Of a stretch of 64,000 bases of DNA, positions 14,576 to 17,151 are shown in pieces (position 1 is the first letter of the stretch; the number at the start of each line of letters is the position of its first letter). The stretch comes from Pontibacter vulgaris (GTDB taxonomy: Bacteria > Bacteroidota > Bacteroidia > Cytophagales > Hymenobacteraceae). The notes under the pieces were generated by a model. The model was given only the letters and a program-made list of their open reading frames with translations. It was not told where the DNA came from and made no database searches. Made by a program: the position numbers and the translations under genes. The DNA lies in contig NZ_JAJVDH010000003.1 in NCBI RefSeq assembly GCF_022758145.1, positions 930,001 to 994,000 of the forward strand, read 5' to 3'.

Positions 14576-15286
14576 TTATTTTTCAGAAAGCTGTTGGTCT
14601 ATTGTTACAAATTGGTAGCCTTTATACTTTAGTTTGGTTAGCAACTCATCCAGCCGGCTGTAAAACTTATCTTCACGCCTTGGGTCGGTGCCTATATGTA
14701 GCAATAATAAAAACCCATTCAGGCCATGCGAGTCCTGCTCCTCATACTTTAGTATCGACTGAAGTATGGTTTCGGAGCTAACGTACCGGTTGCCCATTTC
14801 CGGCCAGGTATAGTCGGCAGCAGAGCGGGTGCCGGGCGTAAAGTTCACAAGCCGGAGCCCTTCTGCTGTTGTCCAATTGGCGATCTGGCTGTTGTACCAT
14901 TCGTAGGGTGGCAGAAAGTATAATGCATCCGTTTTCCTGATCCCGAACCTGGCCATCCTTTTATAATTGCGCTGCAGGTCTTCGCTAAATTGCTCCTGCG
15001 TTACAAGCAGGCTGTCGCGCTTTGCCCAGTCGCAGTACAGCAAATGCGCATCAGAATGAGCTCCCAGGTAATGCCCCGCCCGCTTCAGCTTCCGGATTTC
15101 CGTATTAAAATCAGAATTACCATAAAAGCGGCCTGTAAAAAAGAAGGAAGCTTTTGCTTTGTGTTTCTTCAGCGTTTTCCGGATACTTTCTGCGCCATCG
15201 GCAAATTCATCGCCTGTAAAAACCAGCGCTATACTTTTGTCTGATAAATCTCCTCTAACTATAGCGCCGTGTTTATCAGTTATTAC
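14576..15286 (-). CDS. Polysaccharide deacetylase (NodB-type) domain in the -1 frame of GH9, without its own start codon
   Basis: About 236 codons encode a NodB-like fold: SIALVFTGDEFADGAESI near the start holds the metal Asp, followed by ASFFFTGRFYG, GHYLGAHSDAHLLYCDW (H-x3-H metal site), YFLPPYEWY and GFLLLLHIGTDPRREDKFY. The open frame enters from inside the GH9 gene, and no ATG, GTG or TTG lies between the in-frame stop (about 15315) and the conserved FTGDEF motif; the first candidate (TTG at 15043) is inside the domain. The GH9 frame stops at TAA TAA directly after A_AAA_AAG (15292-15286), and a -1 slip there joins the two frames. This is either programmed frameshifting, transcript slippage, or a one-base loss in the A run. 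N-deacetylation of GlcNAc-type sugars is the family role. Confidence 0.8.
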   Translation of the reverse strand, partial: VITDKHGAIVRGDLSDKSIALVFTGDEFADGAESIRKTLKKHKAKASFFFTGRFYGNSDFNTEIRKLKRAGHYLGAHSDAHLLYCDWAKRDSLLVTQEQFSEDLQRNYKRMARFGIRKTDALYFLPPYEWYNSQIANWTTAEGLRLVNFTPGTRSAADYTWPEMGNRYVSSETILQSILKYEEQDSHGLNGFLLLLHIGTDPRREDKFYSRLDELLTKLKYKGYQFVTIDQQLSEK

Positions 15287-15309
15287 TTTTTTACCTGCGC
15301 CCCCTCCTT
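15226..15309 (-). promoter_or_regulatory. Candidate -1 frameshift cassette (SD-like, slippery heptamer, hairpin)
   Basis: Read on the minus strand: AAGGAGG (15309-15303), a 10-nt spacer, A_AAA_AAG (15292-15286) in the GH9 frame, two TAA stops, an 18-nt gap, then a hairpin with arms GCGCTATA (15267-15260) and TATAGCGC (15233-15226), extendable by two pairs. The slippery sequence and upstream SD-like element match the layout known from E. coli dnaX. The hairpin is further away than in dnaX. Confidence 0.55.
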
Positions 15310-17151
15310 GGCGCTATGTTCCTGGGCCGCAAGTAAGTATATGAGCGAGGCCGTGCCGTCCATAGTTGGTTCATTTGTACTATAGTCGCCGAAGTCATCG
15401 TGGTAGACTACGAAGTTGGATTGAAAAGCCGCATACTCATCTTCGTTATATAGTTTTATACTTTTCAGGTTGTTGTAAATGCTGCCGTAAACGGGCCCAT
15501 CTACTAGGCCACCATCAAGCGGGTATTGGTGTAGGTAAGTAAGCGACGAATGCGGATCTACGGGTGTATTGCCGTTTGCAGGCAGGCCAAAAACCATACT
15601 GGTACCCCAAGGGTTGCAGCCAAAAAGCCAGTCTATATTGGCCTGCTCCAGCTCGCTATAAGTCTGGTCGCTGGTTAGCTCGCGGTACAAATGGCTCTGG
15701 ATGGCAAATGATGTGGTCAGGTTGTTAGAGCACCAAATAAATGGAACACCGCGGTAAAAAGCGTTTTTCTTTGCTTTGGCAAACACCCGCTCGATACCTT
15801 CTTTATAAAAACCGATAAGTTCGGCTTTAGACTTTGCATCCGCTTTTTTGGCCAGCTCAAAGTGCCCGAAATTATGAAACGGGTACCACTGGTAATGGCG
15901 GGCAGTGTCGGCTCCCATCCACGGGGTTACTTTCTCCTGCAGCCCGTAAGTATAAGATTGCTTAAAGTAGGTTTGATCATCGGTTAGCTGGTATAGTGCC
16001 GCAGCGCCCAGTTGCATATCGTCTACCCAGTTATCTTCTTCATAAAAGTATGGTGCACGGTTTGGAGCTGTCTGGGCAACGCCTGGTTTGGCAAGCCCGA
16101 GCTTATAAGCTGATAATGCTTTCTGGCTGAACAGCTGCGCCAATTTATCGTCCTGGCTTTTGTAAGTTTGAGCAGCCAGAGCAAAAGCACTGGTAAATTT
16201 ACCTGCTATAGAGGCTACGCCGGTTGCCCTGTTTTTATACTTGCCCAAGCCCTGCGGTTCGCCGGTGGCAAAGTATACCGGGCGTTCTTTCCCTTTGCCC
16301 ATACCATAATCCACATCGTCTTTGGTGGGCAAGCGCATACTTTGGTGGTCGCGGTCATCGGCCAGCTGGTTAAAAAGCCAGTTTTCCCGTGGGTGCATTT
16401 TCAACAGCCAGTCCAGGCCCCACTTTGCTTCATCCAGCACATCGGCTACACCGTTATTGCCTTCCAGCCCATTACCCAGGTGCTTATCCGTAAATACCTC
16501 CGGAAAATCGCGGTAGGCAGCCAGCAGGTGATAGGTGGCATTGGCCGAGGTGGTAGAATATTGCAGGTAATCCGAAGCATCGTGCCATCCACCCGAAACA
16601 TCAATTTTAGTGCTATCCGGCATCGGGCCATACATGGTATAGCCATCTTTGGTGTGGCACGAATCCTTCAGGTAAGGGTTAAATCCGCTTCGTTGCTGGC
16701 GCATATAACGCAAAGCAAAATCAGCAGTGCCTTTGTACAGATCGTTTGCCAACTTAAATACCGGTGACTTTACTTTGCCAGCCTTCAGGTAGTAATTGCC
16801 TGGTTTAGTATAAGCAGAAAAGTTTAACCTGTAGGATTCCTGAAAAGGACCATAAGCGCCGAAGGCCTGCCCTGCTTTGCCTTTAAAAACCACTTTGTTT
16901 GTAGCAGCATCCACCAGTTCAAAACGTTTTAAACCTTTTGATGATTTGCTCACCCATACGGCTACTTTTATACCCGAAGGCGTATAACCCAGCTGATTTA
17001 TGCGTATCCAGGCATGCGTCTCGGTTTTACTTTCAGTGAGGCTGCTAATGGCAAAGTCTGAGCGTACTTGCTGGTTAAAAGCAATCGCATTTGCTGCCAG
17101 AATGCACGCCCCAAAGGCAACAGCCAGCCACGTTTTCTTTCTTTTCATCAT
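15283..17151 (-). CDS. Glycoside hydrolase family 9 with N-terminal Ig-like (CelD_N) domain
   Basis: This protein of 622 residues has a signal peptide from MMKRKKTWLAVAFGACILAA. It has an Ig-like CelD_N domain (about 40-125, WIRINQLGYTPSGIKVAVW) and an (alpha/alpha)6 GH9 domain with GGWHDASDYLQY (D191 and D194, activating the water) and STNEPTMDGTA (E594, the acid). A longer frame from 17199 would add 16 residues encoded by repeated aagtata and is not preferred. GH9 contains endoglucanases but also exo-beta-glucosaminidases, and the deacetylase frame fused behind it favours an amino-sugar substrate (inference). The reading frame ends at QVKK-stop exactly on the slippery heptamer described separately. 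Confidence 0.88.
   Translation of the reverse strand: MMKRKKTWLAVAFGACILAANAIAFNQQVRSDFAISSLTESKTETHAWIRINQLGYTPSGIKVAVWVSKSSKGLKRFELVDAATNKVVFKGKAGQAFGAYGPFQESYRLNFSAYTKPGNYYLKAGKVKSPVFKLANDLYKGTADFALRYMRQQRSGFNPYLKDSCHTKDGYTMYGPMPDSTKIDVSGGWHDASDYLQYSTTSANATYHLLAAYRDFPEVFTDKHLGNGLEGNNGVADVLDEAKWGLDWLLKMHPRENWLFNQLADDRDHQSMRLPTKDDVDYGMGKGKERPVYFATGEPQGLGKYKNRATGVASIAGKFTSAFALAAQTYKSQDDKLAQLFSQKALSAYKLGLAKPGVAQTAPNRAPYFYEEDNWVDDMQLGAAALYQLTDDQTYFKQSYTYGLQEKVTPWMGADTARHYQWYPFHNFGHFELAKKADAKSKAELIGFYKEGIERVFAKAKKNAFYRGVPFIWCSNNLTTSFAIQSHLYRELTSDQTYSELEQANIDWLFGCNPWGTSMVFGLPANGNTPVDPHSSLTYLHQYPLDGGLVDGPVYGSIYNNLKSIKLYNEDEYAAFQSNFVVYHDDFGDYSTNEPTMDGTASLIYLLAAQEHSAKEGAQVKK

Follow-up and report, generated by a model that had tools for sequence, protein, structure and literature searches.

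A dnaX-like slip signal between a GH9 glycoside hydrolase gene and a start-less NodB deacetylase frame in Pontibacter vulgaris and other Bacteroidota

The GH9 and NodB reading frames and their junction

The window analysed here is a stretch of 64,000 nucleotides of Pontibacter vulgaris DNA. On its minus strand, a gene for a GH9 glycoside hydrolase is followed directly by a CE4/NodB polysaccharide deacetylase module in the -1 frame. The features of the locus are as follows.

15283..17151, minus strand: GH9 glycoside hydrolase ORF, 0 frame (Pfam PF00759, E 1.3e-70; PF02927, E 2.5e-24)
15303..15309, minus strand: Shine-Dalgarno (SD)-like candidate stimulator AAGGAGG, with GGAGG at 15303-15307
15286..15292, minus strand: slippery heptamer A_AAA_AAG
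15280..15285, minus strand: tandem 0-frame stops TAA TAA, abutting the heptamer (first stop 15283-15285)
14576..15286, minus strand: CE4/NodB polysaccharide deacetylase module, -1 frame, no start codon (Pfam PF01522, E 1.6e-13)
15224..15269, minus strand: 10-bp long-loop hairpin (15260-15269 pairs with 15224-15233; loop of 26 nt)

The GH9 ORF is comprised of a signal-like N-terminus, a CelD_N Ig-like domain and the GH9 domain as assigned by Pfam, and the PF00759 match spans positions 1-444 of 444, i.e. the full length of the catalytic domain. An alternative start at a TTG (17199) is possible. Fold comparison, made with regard to the substrate, placed endoglucanases at the top of the matches and exo-glucosaminidases further down. 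The 3' end of the gene reads ...GCG CAG GTA AAA AAG TAA TAA on the minus strand, with A_AAA_AAG in the 0 frame and the two stops ending the GH9-only product. The -1 frame is open from 31 codons ahead of its FTGDEF motif to a stop at 14576-14578, and in the window sequence there is no in-frame ATG, GTG or TTG between the opening stop and FTGDEF. Following a slip, the first -1 codon would be GTA at 15286 and reading would continue for 236 codons, giving a predicted GH9-CE4 product of ~857 residues if translation begins at the second ATG and ~874 if it begins at the upstream TTG.

The NodB domain is PdaA-like by sequence and fold. The metal-binding H-[ST]-x-x-H motif is present, as HSDxH in most NodB homologues. 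The canonical TFDD form of motif 1 was not found; the motif is FTGDE in most homologues and FTGHE in some, and for this reason the deacetylase activity of the module is uncertain. A histidine replaces the FTGDE aspartate (FTGHE/FTGHEF) in loci L114, L099, L125 and L104.

The translation machinery of the genome is compatible with a slip of the dnaX type. The 16S 3' tail is CACCTCCTTT, and its end, GGATCACCTCCTTT, contains the anti-SD CCUCC, to which the GGAGG of the junction is complementary. The distance between GGAGG and the heptamer is exactly 10 nt. Of the 40 tRNA genes found, two are for tRNA-Lys with the anticodon UUU and none has CUU; in E. coli dnaX, the proneness of AAG to slip has been tied to there being a single tRNA-Lys (PMC5009743). 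The pattern GGAGG-N9-11-AAAAAAG occurs twice in the 4.19-Mb genome compared with six occurrences of the reversed control; the motif therefore shows no genome-wide excess, and the evidence for the signal lies in its conservation. The second match (L216) has its slip run within a continuous ORF.

The hairpin begins ~16 nt past the heptamer. An RNAalifold consensus of 31 SD-type relatives contains no pairs (z +0.4), and a conserved 3' hairpin in the Pontibacter group was rejected on this result. A stem-loop ~5 nt past the heptamer, as in dnaX, is absent from the window and was found only in a Pedobacter-type subset of junctions. The hairpin of the window is unconserved and too distant, and a function as a stimulator is improbable.

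An earlier note, written from the window alone, had proposed a GH9 frame ending in A_AAA_AAG and TAA TAA, an AAGGAGG 10 nt upstream of the heptamer, a start-less deacetylase at -1, a fusion of about 860 residues and a downstream hairpin of 8-10 bp. The coordinates, the exact spacing, the missing start codons and the predicted length given above agree with these proposals; as for the hairpin, a 10-bp fold does exist, but a part as a stimulator is unlikely.

Conservation within Pontibacter

NodB lies directly 3' of GH9 in 17 of the 59 relatives' genomes, all but one of which belong to one genus (Pontibacter, going by the named loci). Each of these 17 loci shows the -1 arrangement, the heptamer, the immediate stop and a GGAGG or GGGAGG ~10 nt upstream. 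The 17 Pontibacter sequences are diverged at synonymous sites to near saturation (median dS ~1.5), yet codons -7 (GAG), -6 (GGG), -3 (NNA), -2 (AAA) and -1 (AAG), which include the three codons carrying the heptamer, are free of synonymous change, and among 192 windows the lowest synonymous divergence is that of the last nine GH9 codons. Among the junctions compared, the amino acid at codon -8 varies (R/Q/K/G/L) with a third base that is always G, and that at codon -3 varies (A/V/P/G) with a third base that is always A; within the genus, R, Q, K and L occur at -8 and A, V and P at -3. As amino acids vary at these positions while the nucleotides are kept, the constraint acts on the RNA. The loci L069 and L152, where GGAGG sits in another codon phase, point in the same direction.

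Both frames are under purifying selection in the Pontibacter set, with omega values of 0.064 for GH9 and 0.108 for NodB, the latter indicating that the start-less frame encodes a functional protein. These values bear on the alternative, raised in the earlier note, that one A is missing at the junction through a sequencing error or a mutation, and on the related idea that NodB is a decaying remnant. Homopolymer runs are error-prone and in-frame fusions do exist; however, the same frame relation recurs across dozens of assemblies made independently, a run of seven As at the junction is present in no Pontibacter, the SD codons are frozen, and NodB is open and selected. Conservation and dN/dS together rule this explanation out, and its probability is practically negligible.

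Some GH9 orthologues without NodB have lost the SD, the heptamer or both, which speaks for the frameshift. G022 and G012/G023 have no A6-G run, and in G032 the A-run is kept, GGAGG is absent and the stop is displaced. One orthologue (L037, in G019) retains both the SD and the heptamer with no NodB detectable behind them, which counts against the frameshift reading, as does the lack of a conserved 3' stimulator in the window; G019 has probably lost NodB recently. In a further genome (G036, locus L043), GH9 is broken into stop-containing pieces and represents a decaying copy.

Junctions across the Bacteroidota

A scan of GTDB genomes turned up 462 relatives of NodB, of which 80 were kept for classification: 35 lie at -1 to GH9, 35 are in-frame fusions, nine are NodB-only genes with a hydrophobic leader, and one is a separate gene with an ATG. 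Combining the classified GTDB loci with loci from whole-genome searches resulted in a catalogue of 80 distinct -1 GH9/NodB junctions and 82 distinct in-frame fusions in Bacteroidota. All 80 junctions contain an A-run slip site of at least six As, the 0-frame stop directly follows the run in 62 of them, and no GH9/NodB overlap at +1 was found in this set. Plain in-frame fusions had been named beforehand as an observation that would speak against a programmed slip. The 82 loci belong to other lineages and mostly have neither an SD nor a slip run (GGAGG in the linker in 4/82, a run of at least six As in 13/82), so they indicate that the fused protein is a functional product and do not refute the frameshift.

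The catalogue also bears on whether NodB could be made on its own, by re-initiation or by coupled translation from a non-standard start, with the SD-like element serving as its ribosome-binding site. The position of this element just upstream and the stop at the junction would suit such a model. However, most loci have no in-frame ATG, GTG or TTG ahead of the catalytic motif, on which ground separate initiation was rejected. A NodB initiated separately would lack a signal peptide, whereas NodB-only homologues bear their own hydrophobic, signal-like leader, which NodB in the -1 loci does not have; moreover, the model gives the heptamer no role, and in-frame fusions are common. We consider it extremely unlikely. 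With neither a start nor a signal peptide of its own, NodB would have the slip as its only plausible path to synthesis and export, and because the GH9 N-terminus is signal-like, the two products are likely an exported GH9 and an exported GH9-CE4.

Two classes of junction can be distinguished by run length. Among the 59 junctions with 6-8 As, GGAGG is found at 5-17 nt in 55 and at exactly 10 nt in 44, whereas only 2 of the 21 junctions with 9-10 As have an SD-like GGAGG. The two states occur side by side in Rufibacter-type loci, where L152 has six As and GGAGG and five others have nine As and no GGAGG there. The association is strong by count (Fisher p 1.4e-12), but the sequences are related and the counts are not independent events. 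The tree requires 13 or more switches between frameshift and fusion and at least five between short and long runs. Because only two supported independent contrasts are available and most deep branches are weak, the link between SD and run length is to be read as a pattern and not as a test.

The long runs suggest a second route to the fused protein, in which RNA polymerase slips on the A-run and adds one A in some transcripts, joining the frames with no slip of the ribosome. Transcriptional slippage is known on runs of nine As (PMC5009743), and the scarcity of the SD in the 21 long-run relatives is what would be expected if the run alone suffices; polymerase slippage may thus be the mechanism in these relatives. 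For the window it is very unlikely, as this junction and 55 others have only six As together with a conserved SD-like element for which polymerase slippage would have no use. Alternatively, slippage during replication could alter the run length and toggle the fusion within populations. The 9-11 As present in some relatives, including an in-frame locus with 11 As (L247), could be taken as signs of such phase variation, but six As is short, almost every long-run locus is fixed at -1, and the SD and hairpin would be left unexplained. This possibility is scarcely credible.

Seven Pedobacter-type sites differ from the window in having a 6-bp stem from 5 nt past the heptamer, with the SD at 13 nt (17 nt in one). 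The hairpin has an RNAalifold z of -6.3 over six sites, and over all seven 97.6% of cells pair, compared with 38-57% in slid controls. Two pairs show two-sided changes, and 14 of 500 shuffles matched the covariation score, which, given seven sequences, supports the predicted hairpin but not strongly.

Individual loci show further variations. L247 is an in-frame GH9-NodB fusion on 11 As with a relic of the SD, where the loss of one A leads to an immediate TAG, possibly a mirror-image arrangement. In L072, an in-frame fusion with eight As, a -1 slip leads to a stop 3 nt later; the AlphaFold model of this fused homologue has a mean pLDDT of 73.7, with weak loops. A Catalimonadaceae NodB gene without GH9 (L068) contains ...ASGKKVIKDEHGAIIRG..., which resembles the relic of a frameshift junction.

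Proposed mechanism and comparison with known systems

The junction is very probably a dnaX-type programmed -1 ribosomal frameshift site yielding GH9 alone and GH9-CE4, as judged from the sequence comparisons above. In the proposed mechanism, a ribosome at the end of GH9 would meet A_AAA_AAG with tRNA-Lys(UUU) in both the P and A sites. The GGAGG 10 nt upstream would pair with the 16S anti-SD and pull on the mRNA, aiding the re-pairing of both tRNAs at -1. Without a slip, the ribosome would stop immediately and release a complete exported GH9 enzyme, whereas after a slip it would read on into NodB and produce the exported GH9-CE4. The occurrence and efficiency of the slip, anti-SD pairing in vivo and a use for both products are inferred. 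In the GeneTack tests of PMC3711429, such A-run signals were able to drive 10-63% frameshifting in E. coli.

A point against SD stimulation is that, at initiation, the anti-SD of Bacteroidia ribosomes is sequestered (PMC9976891). However, the SD-like prfB frameshift (+1) is retained in 72% of 726 Bacteroidia genomes (PMC8710568), giving SD-driven recoding a precedent in the class. The prfB case resembles the present one in that an SD-like sequence stimulates recoding despite the sequestered anti-SD; it differs in being +1 and not -1, in its short SD spacing and in its regulatory circuit.

Among the closest known counterparts is the E. coli dnaX element (tau/gamma), AGGGAG-CAACCAAAGC-AAAAAAG, labelled DnaX frameshifting element in RefSeq and confirmed, with its 10-nt spacing, in 5379 of 5426 E. 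coli genomes. The earlier note had likened the two, and the comparison bears this out: both have A_AAA_AAG, an SD-like purine element exactly 10 nt upstream and tRNA-Lys(UUU) as the sole tRNA-Lys, and in both the short form terminates at or just past the slip site. The dnaX-like reading as a whole likewise stands, with heptamer, spacing and start-less -1 deacetylase in place and with SD and slip run kept across genera while amino acids vary. The Pedobacter-type sites share with dnaX a stem ~5 nt downstream, whereas the window has no conserved hairpin. In contrast to E. coli dnaX, the slip in GH9-NodB would give the long product and the 0-frame stop the short one, and the gene encodes a secreted carbohydrate enzyme of Bacteroidota. 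This polarity is that of the reversed dnaX genes (Antonov et al. 2013, PMC3711429; PMC5009743), in which the slip makes tau: the 0-frame stop abuts the slip site, and without the shift there is no long product; the GH9-NodB gene is unrelated to these, and its conserved SD would be the main stimulator. Thermus dnaX, with transcriptional slippage on nine As (PMC5009743), is resembled by the relatives with 9-10 As and no SD, in which slippage is putative, whereas the window has six As and an SD. The magnesium chelatase -1 family is alike in that a -1 shift on an A-run joins modules fused in frame in other species, with an efficiency that rises with run length; it is a different gene, and the portion of PMC3711429 that deals with it describes no conserved split between SD and run length.

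We found no published description of a GH9-NodB frameshift family; an unnamed cluster in the supplementary tables of PMC3711429 and PMC4066793 is possible. The signal and the arrangement are of known kinds (dnaX, reversed dnaX) and the family is new, its unusual aspects being that a Bacteroidota signal uses the SD and that slip mechanisms have turned over at a single junction. A broader proposition, on which we are evenly divided, is that the junction keeps its two-product output while the means changes, the forms being an SD-stimulated A6 slip, SD and hairpin, a long A-run needing no stimulator (possibly polymerase slippage) and perhaps a mirror form in frame on 11 As. In that case, SD-anti-SD pairing would serve Bacteroidota ribosomes during elongation but not at initiation.

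To our knowledge, bacteria have few chromosomal frameshift genes that are both well supported and located outside mobile elements. GH9-NodB would add a secreted metabolic enzyme that is present in several families of Bacteroidota, and its natural variants, which number in the dozens, show trade-offs between slip run, SD and hairpin. The family offers a direct test of whether elongating ribosomes have the anti-SD free, which in Bacteroidia is sequestered at initiation. Automatic annotation likely overlooks the deacetylase half or labels it a pseudogene.

The two products would probably be used in the context of amino sugars or peptidoglycan recycling, and the gene neighborhood suggests muropeptide or amino-sugar use in Pontibacter; most of the other genera do not show this neighborhood. 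In the window, positions 835-25990 hold a cluster of the peptidoglycan/MurNAc-recycling type that includes NamZ, a MurQ-like SIS protein, Amidase_2, GHL10 and a GH3 + beta-lactamase protein. The same cluster contains an HGSNAT-like protein, an SSF symporter, SusC/SusD and a metallophosphatase with a PQQ propeller.
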